From a virus, in the IMG/VR virus record IMGVR_UViG_3300042691_020656, positions 1 to 39,382 of that record: DNA of 39,382 nt; one strand, given 5' to 3'. The notes below the pieces were generated by a model. That model did not search any database. It was not told the origin of the DNA and was given only the letters and a program-made list of their open reading frames with translations. The translations under genes were made by a program, and so were the position numbers. Positions 2,118 through 39,382 of this stretch are shown here, piece by piece. Every line of letters starts with the position of its first letter. Within the stretch, counting starts at the first letter, position 1.

Positions 2118-2400
2118 TTCGAGCCTCATCGATTGCATCGGTGAGCATCGCCCGCGCGAGATCGGCCACCGACGAGCCCATCCGCGCTGCCTCGCGCCGC
2201 AGCCACTCGTAGTCATCGCGGGCCACGGCAGAGATTTTCATTTCCCGGTACTGGCGCGTCGGGCGTCCGTGCATCCGCAGCACCTTGTAGGTGTAACAGC
2301 GGCCAACGCCGACCTGCTGCGCGATAACCGGCGGCGCCACACCCCGGTCGAACAGGTCGAGGATGTCACGGGTCTTGCCGTTGCGCTGTATCCTCACCAT
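2104..2400 (-). CDS. Helix-turn-helix DNA-binding protein
   Basis: 98 residues. Residues 10-45 (TRDILDLFDRGVAPPVIAQQ then VGVGRCYTYKVLRMHG) form a transposase/resolvase-style helix-turn-helix. The C-terminal part (MKISAVARDDYEWLRREAARMGSSVADLARAML) resembles a ribbon-helix-helix/CopG-like segment. So it looks like a small two-part DNA-binding protein. The ATG at 2400 lies inside the 3' end of the helicase gene, giving a short overlap typical of this operon. Target and role unknown; a regulator of the early operon is plausible. Confidence 0.65.
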   Translation of the reverse strand: MVRIQRNGKTRDILDLFDRGVAPPVIAQQVGVGRCYTYKVLRMHGRPTRQYREMKISAVARDDYEWLRREAARMGSSVADLARAMLTDAIDEARNGRG

Positions 2401-3761
2401 GCCTTCATCGCCTCCAGCAGGATGTCTTGCACCGACCGCTTGCTCTGCAGCCGCTCGAGGACGAGCTCGTCCACCGTCTTCTCGGCCACGATGTGGTAGA
2501 TGAAGACCGGCCGCTTGTGGCCCGCCTGCGCCTGGCGCACGGGGCCGATGCGCTCGATGATCTGTTCATGCTCCTCGAGCGACCAGTTGAAACCGAAGAA
2601 GACGAGGGTGTTGCCACCGTCCTGCAGGTTCAGCCCGTGGCCGGCACTGGCCGGGTGGGCGAGGAGCATGGGGATCTTGCCCTTGTTCCAGTCGCTGATC
2701 GTCTTCGGGTTCTTGTCGAGCACCTTCGCCTTCGGGAATGCCTTCTGCAGGCGCGCGAGGTCGCTCTTGAAATGATACGCAACGAGGATAGGGGCGCCCG
2801 CAGCCTCCTCCACGATGCTCTCCAGGGCGTCGAGCTTCTCGCGGTGCGCCTCGGTCCATGAGCCCTTCTCGTCATGGTAGACGGCGCCGTTCGCCAGCTG
2901 CAGCAGCTTCATCGTCTTCGCCGCAGCGTTGAAGGCCTCGAGGTCGTGGCCGTTCAGCTGGGCCACCATCTCGCGGTGCATCTCGTCGTAGGCCCGGCGG
3001 GCGCCGGGCGGCAGGGTGACGGGGATGCGCGTCACGATCGGCTGCTGGAGGTCGAAGTGGTCCTCGGGGCGGATCGCGAGGGCCACGTCCTGCAGGGCCG
3101 CCTCGATCTCGCGCTGCGAGTGCGGCAGGATTTCCAGCTTGGTGAAGCCTGCGCTGGTCGGGATTTGCCGGAACCAGCGGCTGGAAAAGGCCGCGAAGGA
3201 CTTGCCGAGGCGCTGGCCCCGGTCGATGAACCAGAGCTGCCCCCAGAGGTCGATCATGCCGTTGGACGCTGGCGTGCCGGTGAGCTGGATGAACCGCTTG
3301 ACGCGGGTGTGGGCGACCTTGCCGAGAGCCTGTGCCCGCTGGCCGCCCTGCCGCAGCCGGAAGGACTTGAGGCGGGTGCTCTCGTCGGCCACCACCGTGG
3401 CGAAGGGCCAGCTCTCCCCGAAATGCTCGCAGAGCCAGGGCAGGTTCTCATAGTTCATGCTGTAGACGTGGGCGGGTGCCCGCAGCGCCGCCACGCGCTC
3501 GCGCGGGCTGCCGGTGACGGGCTGCACCTTCAGGTGCTGGAGGTGATCCCACTTCTTCACCTCGTCGGGCCACGTCGAGCGGGCCACGCGCAGGGGCGCG
3601 AGGACAAGGGCGGGGCCTGTCTCGACCAGGGCGAGGATGTCGAGGGCGGTAAGGGTCGCCGCGGTCTTGCCGAGCCCCATGCCGGCCCAGATCGCCACGC
3701 GGTCCTGCGTCAGGATGCGGTCGATGATCTGCTGCTGGTAGGGGCGGGGGGTGAATTTCAC
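2394..3761 (-). CDS. SNF2-family DEAD-like helicase
   Basis: 455 residues, superfamily 2. Visible motifs: Q/N-terminal RPYQQQIIDRI (residues 5-16), Walker A GMGLGKT (27-33), motif II ADES (125-128, in place of DEGH), motif III LTGTP (160-164), and a C-terminal RecA-like domain ending with the QIIERIGPVRQAQ motif VI region. Phage SNF2-like proteins of this size accompany VRR-NUC, DUF2800, DUF2815 and family A polymerase genes, as here, and are thought to act in phage DNA replication or recombination. Start: GTG at 3761, with GGAGGT a few bases upstream and a GTGA overlap with the methyltransferase stop. The longer frame to 3794 is an extension inside that gene. Confidence 0.93.
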   Translation of the reverse strand: MKFTPRPYQQQIIDRILTQDRVAIWAGMGLGKTAATLTALDILALVETGPALVLAPLRVARSTWPDEVKKWDHLQHLKVQPVTGSPRERVAALRAPAHVYSMNYENLPWLCEHFGESWPFATVVADESTRLKSFRLRQGGQRAQALGKVAHTRVKRFIQLTGTPASNGMIDLWGQLWFIDRGQRLGKSFAAFSSRWFRQIPTSAGFTKLEILPHSQREIEAALQDVALAIRPEDHFDLQQPIVTRIPVTLPPGARRAYDEMHREMVAQLNGHDLEAFNAAAKTMKLLQLANGAVYHDEKGSWTEAHREKLDALESIVEEAAGAPILVAYHFKSDLARLQKAFPKAKVLDKNPKTISDWNKGKIPMLLAHPASAGHGLNLQDGGNTLVFFGFNWSLEEHEQIIERIGPVRQAQAGHKRPVFIYHIVAEKTVDELVLERLQSKRSVQDILLEAMKAW

Positions 3762-5374
3762 GACAGCACCTCCGCAATGCGCTTCCCGATCCACCGCATG
3801 ACGGGCACGGCCATCGAGTTGCCGAGCGCCTTGTAGCGGGGTCCGTCAGGCGCCTCGGGCTTCCCGCGCCAGGGGATGTTCGTGTAATTGTCTGGGAAGC
3901 CCTGAAGGCGCTCGCACTCGACGTGGGTCAGTCGGCGCACGGCCATGTGCTGGAGGACGGCGTTGGTGTCGGGTCGGGTATCAAGCGTTGGCGATTGTTC
4001 CTCTGCATAGCCAATGCCGCCCGCATTCCCCCCGGCAGCGCGCATGAAGCCAGCCACCGCCACGCACGGCGCGGCATCGCCCTTGCCCGTCTCGCCTGCC
4101 TCGGCTGTGAGGGCGTTGACCACATCCCCCATGTCGCCGCGCCCGTTGCGGGCGATCCTCGGCTGGAAGGCGTAGGCCGCGACACCGTGCTGCGCTCCGG
4201 CCTGCAGGGTGTACATGGGGTCGCCATCCTCTCCGACGCCGAGCCCCGCCCGCATGTCATCCGTCGATGACGGTCCGGTACGCTTGCCGACTTCCAGAAG
4301 CGGCACGGCAACCGCCATCTGGCCTCCGCCATTGGCGTGGCTCGCATCATGCGGCATGGCCCTGAGGGTGGGCGAAAGGTCTTCCGTGGCATCCGCGCCG
4401 TGATCCTTGGCGGAGAAGGCGACCGGCACCAGCGGCGTGCCGCGCCCCGTCCCGTCCTCGCTGCCGTCGAAGCCCTCGGCGCGCAGGGCGTGGGTGACGA
4501 GATGCGAGGCGGCGGATTGGACGGATTGGACGGATTGGACGGATTGGAACCCGCCCGCATGCCGCGCGTCAAGAGTTCCAGCGACATCAGGAACCAACCG
4601 CCCGGTGTAGGCGTCTTGGCCGCTGTATGCGCCGGGGTGTGTATCGGCGCACAACGTGCCTACTGTGTGCTGGAGGCCACTGCCGTCAAAGCCTGCATCA
4701 ACGCTGGTGGCAGTTCCTTTCCCCGTTTCTCTGCGCGGCGGAGTATCCCGGCGCACGCCTTCGAACTCAAGAAGAACCGCTGCGGGATCGAACCCCTTTC
4801 GAGCACTTGCGACAACGAACACACGGCGGCGTCGTTGGGCCAGTCCGAAGTATTGGGCGTCGAGGACGCGCCACGCGACTTGTCTTTGGGGTCCATCAAC
4901 CACACCCGCGTTTGTCCATTTCCCCCGTGGCGGAACGTAGGGGTCAACGTCTCCCGCCAGTCCTGCGAGGAAGCATCCGAAGGCGTTGTCCTTGACGGAG
5001 AGGACGCCGGGGACGTTTTCCCAGACGACAATACTTGGATCGCGGCCCTGAGCCTCGCGAGCGGCGTCGATGCTGTCTGCAAGTCTGATGAACTCCAAGG
5101 AGAGGTTGCCCCGGTCATCGCCCAGGGATTTGCGAAGGCCCGCGACAGAGAAGGCCTGGCAGGGTGTGCCGCCGACCAGCACGTCGGCGTCCACGATCCA
5201 CGGCTCGTCCTTCAGAACGGTGAAGTCACCGTGCAGCGGAACATCCGGATAGTGATGCTCCAGCACGGCGCGCGGGAAGGCTTCGATCTCCGAAAAGGCG
5301 AGCGGCTCCCAGCCCAGCGGGTGCCACGCAACGGACGCGGCCTCGATGCCGCTGCAGACGGACAGATACCTCAC
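3758..5374 (-). CDS. DNA cytosine-C5 methyltransferase
   Basis: 538 residues. Motif I SVCSGIEAASVAW (5-17), catalytic motif IV GGTPCQAFS with Cys72, motif VI WENVP (Glu119), motif VIII QRRRR (180-184) and motif X ALGNSMAVPV (near 516-525) are all present, so the enzyme should be active. It methylates cytosine at C5 using S-adenosylmethionine. Between motifs VIII and X lies a long target-recognition region with Gly-rich segments and SPTL phrases, including a VQS tripeptide repeat from a 9-bp DNA repeat. Recognition site cannot be read from sequence. GTG at 5374 is chosen for the GGAGGT ribosome site and GTGA overlap. The gene is bracketed by exact 16-bp repeats. Likely role: protection from host restriction or an epigenetic switch. 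Confidence 0.93.
   Translation of the reverse strand: MRYLSVCSGIEAASVAWHPLGWEPLAFSEIEAFPRAVLEHHYPDVPLHGDFTVLKDEPWIVDADVLVGGTPCQAFSVAGLRKSLGDDRGNLSLEFIRLADSIDAAREAQGRDPSIVVWENVPGVLSVKDNAFGCFLAGLAGDVDPYVPPRGKWTNAGVVDGPQRQVAWRVLDAQYFGLAQRRRRVFVVASARKGFDPAAVLLEFEGVRRDTPPRRETGKGTATSVDAGFDGSGLQHTVGTLCADTHPGAYSGQDAYTGRLVPDVAGTLDARHAGGFQSVQSVQSVQSAASHLVTHALRAEGFDGSEDGTGRGTPLVPVAFSAKDHGADATEDLSPTLRAMPHDASHANGGGQMAVAVPLLEVGKRTGPSSTDDMRAGLGVGEDGDPMYTLQAGAQHGVAAYAFQPRIARNGRGDMGDVVNALTAEAGETGKGDAAPCVAVAGFMRAAGGNAGGIGYAEEQSPTLDTRPDTNAVLQHMAVRRLTHVECERLQGFPDNYTNIPWRGKPEAPDGPRYKALGNSMAVPVMRWIGKRIAEVLS
4514..4547. repeat. 9-bp tandem repeat inside methyltransferase gene
   Basis: GGATTGGAC is repeated three full times plus seven bases (4514-4547). 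On the coding strand it encodes repeating Val-Gln-Ser in the variable target-recognition region. The unit is a multiple of three, so copy-number slippage would change the length of the loop without breaking the frame. Confidence 0.85.
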
Positions 5375-5634
5375 GACAGCACCTCCTCGATCGCGCCGAT
5401 GCTGTCGATGACCAGCACCGTCTGCCCCATCGCCCGCATGCGGGCGTGCTCGCGCAGCTGGTGGACGGTCGGCTTGCGGCCGGGCGCTTTCAGCTCGACC
5501 CACACCAGCACACCAGGCAGCATCACCAGCCGATCCGGTGCGCCGACGCGGCCCGGCCACTGCACCTTGCGGACCTCGCCACCGGCACGCTTGACGGTCT
5601 GGACGAGGGCCCTCTCGATGTCGCGCTCTCTCAC
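5371..5634 (-). CDS. VRR-NUC domain nuclease
   Basis: 87 residues, essentially one VRR-NUC (PD-(D/E)xK) domain as in stand-alone phage versions. The active-site pattern is GAPDRLV (Asp34), then VWVELKAPG (Glu47 and Lys49) and TVHQL (Gln59). Such enzymes are structure-specific, Holliday-junction or flap nucleases; the phage type probably acts with the neighbouring SNF2 helicase in replication or recombination. Start: GTG at 5634 with GAGGT seven bases upstream and a GTGA overlap with the polymerase stop. The open frame further upstream lies inside the polymerase gene. Confidence 0.92.
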   Translation of the reverse strand: MRERDIERALVQTVKRAGGEVRKVQWPGRVGAPDRLVMLPGVLVWVELKAPGRKPTVHQLREHARMRAMGQTVLVIDSIGAIEEVLS

Positions 5635-11023: not shown

Positions 11024-11596
11024 TTTCGTGTTTCGGTAACGTGGCCGAACGAAAGCAATGGGATAGGCCCGCTCGACCACGGCGTCGACGATCGCGGGGC
11101 CGTTGAGGCTCTCTAGGGTGAACACGCCGGGCTGCGATCCGAGCATCAGCCGCTTGAGGTAGCGGCGCCCGTCCGCCAGTTCGACGTAGCAGATCGAGCC
11201 GATCAGGCTCTCGACCGACACAAAGACCTTCTCGATGTAGATGACCTCGCCGTCATCGTATTTCGGTTGCATGCTGTCGCCGCGTATGATCAGCGCAATG
11301 CCGTTGAGCATGCCCGGTGGTGCAGGCACTTCGTCCAGTCCATCGCCTTTCATGTGATCGTCGATTGCCAGCACTTCCGCACCCGCTCCAACATATCCAA
11401 CGACGGGGATCGTCGCCTTCGTGTCTTCCGAAAGGTGAAGATATTTGATCACGCGCGCTAGATATTTGGAGTTGCGAACTGTGCCGCTCTCAATCCGCTG
11501 TATGTCCGCCTGGCTGCAGCCGATGGCCTCGGCCAGCTGCTTTTGCTTCAGACCGCGCGCCTCCCGCGCGCGCCTGATCTCGACGCCTACGCCCAC
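11021..11596 (-). CDS. CI/LexA-like repressor (HTH plus S24 peptidase domain)
   Basis: 191 residues from the GTG at 11596, which has GGGAG and AGGA upstream; open frame continues to 11644 without a ribosome site. Residues 5-38 form an XRE-type HTH (LKQKQLAEAIGCSQADIQRIESG). The S24 domain has the Ala-Gly self-cleavage site in GYVGAGAEV (71/72), catalytic Ser108 in GDSM and Lys148 in YLKRL. So it should be a lysogeny repressor that is inactivated by RecA-stimulated self-cleavage, i.e. SOS-inducible. It sits between two matching operator-promoters, as lambda cI does. It is transcribed against PR and with PL. Confidence 0.93.
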   Translation of the reverse strand: MGVGVEIRRAREARGLKQKQLAEAIGCSQADIQRIESGTVRNSKYLARVIKYLHLSEDTKATIPVVGYVGAGAEVLAIDDHMKGDGLDEVPAPPGMLNGIALIIRGDSMQPKYDDGEVIYIEKVFVSVESLIGSICYVELADGRRYLKRLMLGSQPGVFTLESLNGPAIVDAVVERAYPIAFVRPRYRNTK

Positions 11597-11638
11597 AATC
11601 CTGATCTCCCAAACCGGGCCGTCCCAGGTAGACACATA

Positions 11639-11704
11639 ACACACTTGTGTGTGGATTAGTTCCGTTTAAAGGGCGTTGACGAAATAAACAGTTCCGTGTT
11701 CTTC
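11639..11704 (+). promoter_or_regulatory. PR promoter, operators and adjacent dyad
   Basis: Rightward promoter: -35 TTGACG (11676-11681), 17-base spacer, -10 TTCTTC (11699-11704). The spacer and start of the -10 hold the operator TAAACAGTTCCGTGTT (11685-11700), an inverted copy of the PL spacer operator. A weaker half-like site, AGTTCCGTTTA, lies at 11658-11668. A dyad ACACAC-TT-GTGTGT (11639-11652) lies in the repressor leader and could bind a second regulator. The repressor promoter should run leftward through this area but I could not pick its boxes. Confidence 0.75.
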
Positions 11705-22213: not shown

Positions 22214-22282
22214 ATGGCGCAGCCAACCAATCTCTTCGACCGTTACGACGGTACGAAGGCAGTGCGTGAAGACCTCGCGAAT
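22214..22282 (+). CDS. Major capsid protein, exon 1 (codons 1-23)
   Basis: ATG at 22214 begins MAQPTNLFDRYDG and 23 codons end REDLAN, the exact N-terminus expected of SU10/DUF5309-type capsid proteins, whose members read MAQPTNxFDxYDAxGxREDLxxIIYNISP. A TGA then follows at 22283. Spliced to exon 2 (23307-24221) it gives REDLAN-IIYNISPEDTPFM with no gap and in frame. Its last six bases, GCGAAT, pair with intron GTTCGC (22314-22319) as P1, with the required U.G at the splice site. GAAAGGATCACC gives the ribosome site. Confidence 0.93.
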
Positions 22283-23306
22283 TGACTTGATAAGTCTTCT
22301 GACTTAGATGATAGTTCGCTTGATGCTATCGTCCAGAAAGTCAGAGCATGAACGAAGAATGGAAGAAGCTAGATAGGACCGCGATGTACGCTCTGTATGA
22401 ACAGATGACCGGAAAGGAGATCGCCGAGAAATTCGGTGTGACCTACGGCGCTGTTTATCATCGTCTTCGCACGATGGGGCTCCAGTCTCGTCGGCACCGT
22501 CCTGGCCCTAACCGGGTCGCCCGCACTTTCAACCCAAGGCGAGATATTCTCGCCAATCTCATCAAAAAGATGAGCATGGCTGAAATTGCGAAATACTATG
22601 GGGTTGGTGAAACTGTCGTTTTCAACCGCCTCAAGGAGTACGGCATTGAGGGACCGTCAAGGTCTGAGCGGTTGACAGGGAAGACCAAATCCCTAGGGCA
22701 CCGCATTGCGATGTCGAAGGCGCAGTCCGGTCGTATCAAGGGTGAAAAGCACCACAACTGGAAAGGTGGCATCTCCAAGTCGGCCTACAATCGTGAAGGC
22801 CGCCTTGAGTATCGCCTCTGGAAACAGATGGTGCATGAACAGTCTGGCTTTAAGTGTGTCCGCTGTGGCGTTGAGCAGGGTACTTTCTGCCAGTGCTGCG
22901 GGCAGCGCATAACGCTGCACGCTCACCACGTCAAACCGTATGCGGATCATCCTGAACTTCGTTATGATGTCAAAAACGGCATCTCTCTTTGCTCTGTCTG
23001 CCACTGGAAGGAGCACCATGGAAAACCGGGTGAATTGCTGGAAACCCCTGAGAGCCGTACAGCCACAACGAAGCCGGTAACGGCAAGCGGAAAGGCTTGA
23101 AAATGTACGGATTGGGCAATCAGCAGCCAAGCATCCAATGTAAGGCGCCTCTCGGCGCCCCAGGGTGGATGAAGGTTCAACGACTAGGCGGTGAGGAAAC
23201 GATAATCCGCCCACGAGCGCCCGGCCCGATCAAAAGGGATGATGTAGTCTGGACTTCTCCGAAAAGGGAAGATGGTCGTCGTAAACTGGCGGCCGGTAAC
23301 AAATCG
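22283..23306 (+). ncRNA. Group I self-splicing intron in the capsid gene
   Basis: 1024 bases. P1: exon 22277-22282 with 22314-22319 (U22282.G22314). P10: GATGAT (22307-22312) with the first six exon-2 bases ATCATC. Candidate P3: 22327-22332 with 23199-23204. Core: P5 hairpin 23110-23121, CAGCAGCCAAGC (23121-23132), P6 CATCC/GGATG (23132-23136/23167-23171) with P6a GGCGCC-TCTC-GGCGCC, the signature GGTTCAACGACTA (23174-23186), P7 GACTA/TAGTC (23182-23186/23245-23249), a P9-like hairpin (23254-23271) and terminal G23306. The HNH ORF fills the P1-P4 interval. These match group I consensus elements; subgroup not assigned. Confidence 0.95.
22348..23100 (+). CDS. Intron-encoded HNH homing endonuclease
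   Basis: 250 residues. Two N-terminal helix-turn-helix repeats (MTGKEIAEKFGVTYGAVYHR at 20-39; MSMAEIAKYYGVGETVVFNR at 75-94) should bind the homing site. A NUMOD-like GEKHHNWKGGISK (132-144) follows. The HNH domain has zinc ligands Cys170/Cys173 and Cys215/Cys218, a second Cys group (181-184), catalytic HAHH (191-194), Asn210 and His223/224. It would cut intronless capsid genes near the exon junction and spread the intron. Sequence is more A/T-rich than the phage genes, supporting a separate origin. No strong ribosome site is seen. Its last 50 bases lie in paired intron sequence. Confidence 0.95.
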   Translation: MNEEWKKLDRTAMYALYEQMTGKEIAEKFGVTYGAVYHRLRTMGLQSRRHRPGPNRVARTFNPRRDILANLIKKMSMAEIAKYYGVGETVVFNRLKEYGIEGPSRSERLTGKTKSLGHRIAMSKAQSGRIKGEKHHNWKGGISKSAYNREGRLEYRLWKQMVHEQSGFKCVRCGVEQGTFCQCCGQRITLHAHHVKPYADHPELRYDVKNGISLCSVCHWKEHHGKPGELLETPESRTATTKPVTASGKA

Positions 23307-24221
23307 ATCATCTACAACATCTCCCCGGAAGACACGCCCTTCATGTCGTCTATCGGCCGCGAGAACGTCTCCAACACCTACTTCGAGTGGCAGACCGACG
23401 CCCTGGCGGCGGCCTCGACCTCGAATGCCGTGATCGAAGGCGACGAGGCGACCCTCGGCGCGCGCGCCGCGACCAACCGCGTCGGCAACTACACGCAGAT
23501 CAGCCGCAAGGTTGTCGGCGTCTCGGGCACCGTGGAGGCCGTGGACAAGGCCGGCATGAAGTCCTACCTCGCCTACGAGATGGCGAAGGCTTCCTCCGAG
23601 CTGAAGCGCGACATGGAGGCGATCGTCCTCTACAACGGCGTCGCGGCCACCGGCTCCTCGACCGTGGCCCGCACGACCGCGGGCCTCCCGACGTGGCTGA
23701 AGTACAACTACAACCGCGCGGGCGCCGGCACCTCCCTGCCGGACTACAGCTCGACGGACGACGGCTACCCGGACACGGCCTGGGGCTCCTCGACCGCTCG
23801 CACCTTCTCGGAGACGATCCTCAAGGACGTGATCCAGCAGGTGTGGGCCGCCGGCGGCGACCCGAAGCTCTGCATGATGGGCCCCCACAACAAGGGTGTC
23901 GCCTCGACCTTCACCGGCATCGCGCAGCACCGCATCAACCAGACGAACTCGGGCGCGGGCCCGCTCACCGTGATCTCCACGGTGGACGTGTACCAGTCCG
24001 ACTTCGGCAAGGTGTCCTTCGTGGCGAACCGCTTCCAGCCCGAGCAGTACGCCTTCGTCGTGGACCCGCAGTACGCCTCGATGGGCTACCTGCGGAACTT
24101 CCGCACGGAGGAGCTCGCGAAGAGCGGCGACAGCACGAAGAAGATGATCATCGTGGAGTACGGCCTCAAGGTGAAGAGCCCGCGCGCCCACGGTATCGCG
24201 ACCGACCTCGAAACGTCGTAA
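23307..24221 (+). CDS. Major capsid protein, exon 2
   Basis: 304 codons plus stop, beginning IIYNISPEDTPFMSSIGREN and continuing with QISRKVVGVSGTVEAVDKAG, DMEAIVLYNGVAA, LCMMGPHNKG and FVANRFQPEQYAFVVDPQYAS, a DUF5309/SU10-type HK97-fold capsid protein. With exon 1 the product has 327 residues, normal for the family. The frame is also open through intron 23097-23306, so a naive call would start at 23097 or 23103 with about 70 residues of intron-derived sequence. That extension has no family match and no ribosome site. Codon bias is strongly GC and typical of a highly expressed gene. Confidence 0.95.
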   Translation: MIYNISPEDTPFMSSIGRENVSNTYFEWQTDALAAASTSNAVIEGDEATLGARAATNRVGNYTQISRKVVGVSGTVEAVDKAGMKSYLAYEMAKASSELKRDMEAIVLYNGVAATGSSTVARTTAGLPTWLKYNYNRAGAGTSLPDYSSTDDGYPDTAWGSSTARTFSETILKDVIQQVWAAGGDPKLCMMGPHNKGVASTFTGIAQHRINQTNSGAGPLTVISTVDVYQSDFGKVSFVANRFQPEQYAFVVDPQYASMGYLRNFRTEELAKSGDSTKKMIIVEYGLKVKSPRAHGIATDLETS

Positions 24222-38839: not shown

Positions 38840-39027
38840 AGGTTTGACAATTGGTCACGCAAGCTATTGAATTTATATGTGCGAACGGATGCGATACAGA
38901 TTGTCAAACCTCTTGGAAATCGTTGACTGATGCCTATCCGTCGTCTTTCCGCAGATGGCGCTTTTGGCGTTGTTTTCATTCGATAATCTGCCAAGATTGT
39001 CAAACCTTGCGGGGGAGGTTTGACAAT
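38840..39027. repeat. Four exact 12-bp repeats, putative attP arm sites
   Basis: AGGTTTGACAAT occurs at 38840-38851 (+) and 39016-39027 (+), and inverted at 38900-38911 and 38996-39007. The last two form a perfect 12-bp hairpin pair around eight bases, covering the integrase stop codon. The first two face inward across 48 bases. A cluster of identical short sites beside an integrase gene is the layout of integrase or excisionase arm-type sites; the crossover core may lie at 38912-38995. Apart from these sites the gap 38819-38999 has no gene. Confidence 0.7.
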
Positions 39028-39382
39028 GGAAGCCGCGAAATAGCCTCCCGTGCCATCGGTTCCTGCCGCGCCTGGTCGGCATACCGCTGCACCTCGGCCA
39101 GCGTCCGGTGCCCCGTCACGGCCATGATCTGAAGCGCCGAACACCCCGCCTCCGCCAGCCGCCGCACCGCCGCCTTTCTGAGGCCATGCAGGACGCAGCG
39201 GGCGGGAAGACCGGCCTTGGAGATCGCCTCCGCCATGAAGCCGCCGAAACCGTGGATCGACGTGCCGTGCCCCTTGGCATTGGCGAGGATGGCGATGTGC
39301 TGGCGCGGCCACGCCTCCAGCGCCTGCTTCAGCGCCGGATGCACCGGCACCAGCAGCTCCACGCCCGTCTTCATCTGCTTCA
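39000..39382 (-). CDS. int: Tyrosine recombinase/integrase, C-terminal part (cut by window edge)
   Basis: About 126 C-terminal residues. The frame enters from the right edge as KQMKTGVELLVPVHPALKQA, the strand/lysine region of the catalytic domain. HGLRKAAVRRLAEAG carries the HxLR box, VTGHRTLAEVQRYADQA the GH box and the nucleophile Tyr. So R-H-H/Y are intact, and this is the phage integrase for site-specific integration and excision. The N-terminal arm-binding domain and first Arg lie beyond the window. The stop codon lies in the 12-bp repeat cluster. Confidence 0.93.
   Translation of the reverse strand, partial: KQMKTGVELLVPVHPALKQALEAWPRQHIAILANAKGHGTSIHGFGGFMAEAISKAGLPARCVLHGLRKAAVRRLAEAGCSALQIMAVTGHRTLAEVQRYADQARQEPMAREAISRLPLSNLPRKV

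Follow-up and report, generated by a model that had tools for sequence, protein, structure and literature searches.

The window, by which we mean the whole 39,382-nucleotide stretch of viral DNA analyzed here (IMG/VR record IMGVR_UViG_3300042691_020656), carries its major capsid gene in two parts, both on the plus strand. Exon 1 (22214–22282; 23 codons, ending in REDLAN) lies just downstream of an AAAGGA Shine-Dalgarno-like sequence and encodes MAQPTNLFDRYDGTKAVREDLAN, which matches the N-terminus of intron-free homologs and of the solved capsid structure PDB 9ny2. An in-frame TGA (22283) stands directly after it. Exon 2 (23307–24221) starts with IIYNISPEDTPF and holds the full capsid frame without interruption, matching SU10_MCP (PF17236, 4.1e-93) and phrog_1328 (1e-99). 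Portal and scaffold genes precede the capsid gene, an order that is the same in relatives, and the capsid is 62% identical to that of Sinorhizobium phage phiM5.

When the 1,024 nt from 22283 to 23306 are removed, the 23-residue N-terminus comes into frame with the remainder of an SU10-type capsid. The SU10_MCP domain then lies over the spliced product, together with an N-terminal arm like that of the homologs, and the joined protein and 9ny2 align from one end to the other (residues 1–323). Across the predicted splice junction, the residues read REDLAN-IIYNIS, and the spanning peptide would be EDLANIIYNISPEDTPFMSSIGR. A first-pass annotation of the window had proposed that excision restores the family sequence. 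This has held up: the uninterrupted relatives and the 9ny2 alignment fit the joined protein, so the family requires excision at precisely these two positions.

The uninterrupted state is well represented. The capsid frame is unbroken at this codon junction in 121 loci (97 distinct junctions), of which viral contigs and named phages supply 84 and contigs of bacterial and archaeal genomes the other 37. A typical empty junction reads REDL(S/A)(N/D)|(V/I)IYNISP, and the closest relatives, L002 and L003, are intron-free and 88–89% identical. The last base of exon 1 is T in each of the seven distinct alleles that carry an intron, compared with 24 of the 97 intron-free ones (p 1e-4, a value that ignores kinship); a terminal T in the intron-bearing alleles is what a U.G pair at the splice site would demand.

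The intervening 1,024 nt (22283–23306, plus strand) have the anatomy of a group I intron with splice sites U|U and G|A. The Rfam covariance search that had been proposed as a check matched RF00028 at 22949–23271 (57.6 bits, E 2.5e-13, against a curated cut-off of 50), and this is the sole group I intron that Rfam finds in the whole record. The P1, P10 and P7 strands, the core motifs, the 1,024-nt gap and the terminal G noted in the first-pass annotation are each present where it had placed them. In P1, the exon strand GCGAAU (22277–22282) forms 6 bp with the internal guide sequence GUUCGC (22314–22319), leaving a U.G wobble at the 5′ splice site; elsewhere, L093 pairs GUUCGAG with exon CUCGAAU (7 bp), and introns of the L090 type have GUCC with exon GGAU. 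The P10 strand UAGAUGAU (22305–22312) can form 8 bp with exon 2 AUCAUCUA (23307–23314), including GAUGAU/AUCAUC. P2 is a weaker helix than all the others: UGAUGCU (22321–22327) pairs with AGCACCA (23012–23018) with one A.C mismatch, and its 3′ strand overlaps the codons Glu-His-His of an HNH endonuclease. It was placed by hand, in register with L090 (UGAUGUUUGG/CCAGGCAUCA) and L208 (12 bp).

The catalytic core follows. P3 joins CCGGGUG (23026–23032) to CGCCCGG (23218–23224), with two-sided changes at four of its seven pairs, and P4 joins UUGCUG (23035–23040) to 23121–23126 and is invariant. P5 and P5a occupy 23045–23116, with CCGUACA (23055–23061) opposite UGUACGG (23104–23110); P5a varies throughout among the same-site introns (CCUUGAG/CUCAAGG, CUACCG/CGGUAG). 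The core segment from CAGCAGCCAAGC (at 23121) to GGUUCAACGACUA spans 23121–23186, with GGTTCAACGACTA at 23174–23186, and includes P6 (23133–23136 with 23167–23170), all four pairs of which covary. P7 is formed by GACUA (23182–23186) and the invariant UAGUC (23245–23249). The hairpins are P7.1 (23187–23211; GGCGG/CCGCC), P8 (23225–23238; CCC/GGG, three of three pairs covarying), P9 (23254–23271; four of six pairs covarying, with a terminal mismatch) and P9.1 (23274–23294; GGUCGUC/GGCGGCC, replaced in other introns by GCAAGG/CCUUGC). The intron ends in a G (23306) that is kept in all same-site introns. A P7.1 hairpin between P7 and the P3 3′ strand is a feature of subgroup IA, and by this hairpin the intron is a candidate IA-type (IA2-like) intron; a P7.2 was not identified.

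Support for this structure comes from comparison of the seven distinct same-site introns, in which 99.3% of cells in the eight helices counted are paired. Of the 39 pairs, 17 show two-sided changes (0 of 500 shuffles); pairing falls to 27–40% when the partner strands are slid. P4 and P7 are uninformative either way on covariation because they are invariant; P5a and P9.1 lie outside the count, the alignment being one column off register there. The P3-P4-P5-P6-P7-P8-P9 fold with its P3/P7 pseudoknot is supported by covariation. An unconstrained fold recovers P3, P4, P5, P6, P8 and P9.1, and the folding energy (z −1.27) is uninformative. A P1 and a P10 of at least 6 bp each occur together in 0.12% of random 65-mers from the window and 0.02% of shuffles.

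Homologous introns are found at the same codon junction in at least 18 other uncultured-phage contigs, with exon 1 visible in 16. Scanning viral contigs for the core motif, blind to capsid genes, led to contigs in which a capsid gene starts directly behind the intron, and a second scan, with the intron–exon 2 junction, turned up 17 contigs. Fifteen of these show the 5′ exon, in each case ending at the same codon, and the remaining two are truncated by the end of the contig; L093 is an additional same-junction case with a different 3′ end. Where measured, the capsids of these contigs are 39–49% identical to the window capsid. With the window intron included, lengths range from 292 to 1024 nt. 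Five are 948 nt long (L090 and L121, in which an HNH ORF was read in L2, and L211, L212 and L215 of the same length). Two more, L131 and L216 (380 and 392 nt), have lost the HNH ORF by internal deletions with different breakpoints while keeping the core and splice sites, and those of L093, L117, L207–L210, L213, L214 and L218 are ORF-less (292–321 nt). All share the capsid family, the codon junction and a homologous core with the window intron, and L090 and L121 also a homologous HNH gene in L2. They differ in that the core has diverged and the HNH is only 37–41% identical, deleted (L131, L216) or absent (L117, L208, L209, L093). These same-junction homologs are the strongest evidence for the intron reading. 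Both they and the HNH ORF of the window intron had been missed by the first-pass annotation.

That ORF (22348–23100, plus strand; 250 aa) lies in L2 and is predicted to encode an HNH endonuclease (PF01844 9e-7, above the cut-off; phrog_8446 5.5e-23). It is intact, with an HTH region, Cys pairs and the catalytic residues of the HxHH...N...H motif. Identity to the HNH proteins of L090 and L121 is 39–41%, with HxHH, N, H and the Cys residues invariant, and no relative closer than those at 37–41% was found in the phages, viral contigs or genomes scanned. The 3′ end of the ORF overlaps P3 and P4 and runs into L5/P5, whereas the L090 ORF ends just before P3; translation would therefore compete with folding. 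Third-codon GC is 0.61 in the HNH ORF versus 0.97 in exon 2. Because of this low value, and because the nearest relatives are intron-free, we think that the HNH-bearing intron may have arrived recently by transfer, as both observations suggest.

We consider it very probable that the SU10-type capsid gene of the window is interrupted, after codon 23 and before codon 24, by a mobile group I intron. The Rfam match, the empty sites, the same-junction introns, the covariation and the 9ny2 alignment all bear out the first-pass proposal that the major capsid gene holds a group I intron. The A.C mismatch in P2, the terminal mismatch in P9, the passage of the HNH ORF through P3, P4 and P5 and the failure of the scans to find a closer HNH relative speak against a splicing-competent mobile intron. 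The two mismatches would also fit a degenerate intron that no longer splices and has killed the capsid gene of a defective or prophage copy, as would the origin of the window from an uncultured IMG/VR record and the truncated integrase at the end of the contig, which fits a provirus. Such decay is improbable, however, given that the core helices, P1, P10 and terminal G are all intact, that exon 2 is a full unbroken capsid frame and that the HNH ORF is open with its residues intact.

Translation without splicing would be another way to make a capsid here, from an internal start (TTG 23097 or ATG 23103), giving it an N-terminal extension of intron sequence. No stop interrupts the frame in the 85 codons 5′ of exon 2, and a Shine-Dalgarno-like GGAAAGG precedes the start. 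No capsid homolog matches the extension, however; in every other same-site intron examined, the frame is closed by a stop 18–21 codons before exon 2, and the conserved N-terminus present in 121 loci would be lost. We rejected this possibility on frame and homologs, and regard it as very improbable indeed. An intein or other in-frame protein insertion might come to mind, since inteins with HNH domains also occur in phage genes, but every same-site intron examined opens with a stop codon when read on from exon 1, and several of them, this one (1024) included, have lengths not divisible by three. Frame, length and homologs refute it, and its chance of being right is negligible.

For the mobile group I intron, we infer splicing, endonuclease activity, a cleavage site and homing from the sequence along the following lines. 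On the late mRNA, a ribosome would halt at the TGA (22283) directly behind exon 1 and so stay off the ribozyme. In the folded RNA, an external guanosine would attack the U|U bond, which P1 holds in place; the released exon 1, aligned by P10, would then attack behind G23306, to give a capsid mRNA shorter by 1,024 nt. In a mixed infection, the HNH protein encoded in L2 could nick or cut intron-free capsid genes at or near the conserved site coding for REDL(S/A)N|(V/I)IYNISP, and repair of the cut gene would copy the intron in. The alleles at this one junction, whether empty, occupied, HNH-bearing or HNH-deleted, form a natural series for testing such a homing cycle. A capsid intron must be excised very efficiently, because phages make few proteins in greater quantity than the capsid.

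The first-pass annotation had described capsid-gene introns as rare or undescribed. They are in fact known from LittleE and Tuc2009 (PMC3706429), and are common within the same capsid family in IMG/VR. For mycobacteriophage LittleE, RT-PCR and N-terminal sequencing demonstrated that a group I-like intron splits the major capsid gene (PMC3706429). Like the window intron, this insertion of ∼820 bp has a U before it and a G at its end, an internal homing endonuclease ORF and intron-free relatives; LittleE differs in being an actinobacterial siphovirus with another capsid and another insertion site, and its LAGLIDADG-like ORF lies on the opposite strand (PMC3706429). Lactococcal phage Tuc2009 is cited in the same source as having a group I intron in its capsid gene (PMC3706429); it is likewise a temperate phage but a Firmicute siphovirus. 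The window intron thus joins a known kind, the capsid group I introns. In OM43 phages, the gene in question is that of a polymerase and not of the capsid, and a blastn comparison of the intron with named phages matched core fragments only, in unrelated phages. The IA2-type introns of phages SPO1, Bastille and Twort share with the window intron a P7.1-bearing core and an intron-carried HNH endonuclease, there of the nicking type, but their host genes are DNA polymerase, nrd, terminase or lysis genes. IA2 introns make up over half of viral group I introns (PMC11835236).

We also looked at the ORFs behind the core motif in viral contigs. Among the matches listed for 77 such ORFs, 12 are to the model for SU10-type capsids and 9 to models for capsids in other Pfam families, where one protein may count under two families. 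Capsid genes are the commonest identified host gene among the matches listed, and most of the other identified ORFs there are homing endonucleases; the capsid share is not a frequency, as viral contigs are partly recognized by their capsid genes. On balance, we lean slightly toward the view that major capsid genes, above all those of SU10 type, are a preferred and repeatedly colonized home of IA-type introns, with codons 23|24 kept across 39–49%-identical capsids, at least half a dozen further sites and up to four introns per gene. No description of recurrent capsid introns was found in the open-access papers searched. In intron-bearing phages, gene callers will split capsid genes or place their starts wrongly.

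Several individual contigs deserve mention. In the matches listed for L086–L165, the capsid families behind the core motif are SU10, Phage_capsid_4, P22 coat, cap_E, Gp10A-like and Mu gpT. L100 (IMGVR_UViG_3300031689_000283; 2318–4084, minus strand) has an SU10-type capsid gene apparently in five exons, with four group I introns of 82.8–91.4 bits each, all above the Rfam cut-off. Two group I introns occur in one capsid-like gene in L149 (652–881 and 1023–1255, minus strand). Introns split capsid genes of the same family as that of the window at other sites, about residues 25/26, 41–52, 114–121 and 252–258, in L097, L112, L113, L116, L120, L136, L157 and L110.

As for the phage itself, the first-pass annotation had called it a temperate alphaproteobacterial podovirus. 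A temperate life style is supported by its predicted genes: an HTH and Peptidase_S24 repressor (11024–11644, minus strand) and a tyrosine integrase fragment (39003–39380) cut by the contig end. The other two parts of the description are plausible, a podovirus from the SU10-type portal and capsid and an alphaproteobacterial host from the similarity to the phiM5 capsid. Just upstream of the terminase gene lies a serine recombinase gene (Resolvase, PF00239; 15015–15809, plus strand). A long ORF on the minus strand (3758–5560) is C5 DNA methyltransferase-like (GTPCQAFSVAG, ENVPGVLS) and contains a short in-frame tandem repeat, QSVQSVQSV, in its middle.
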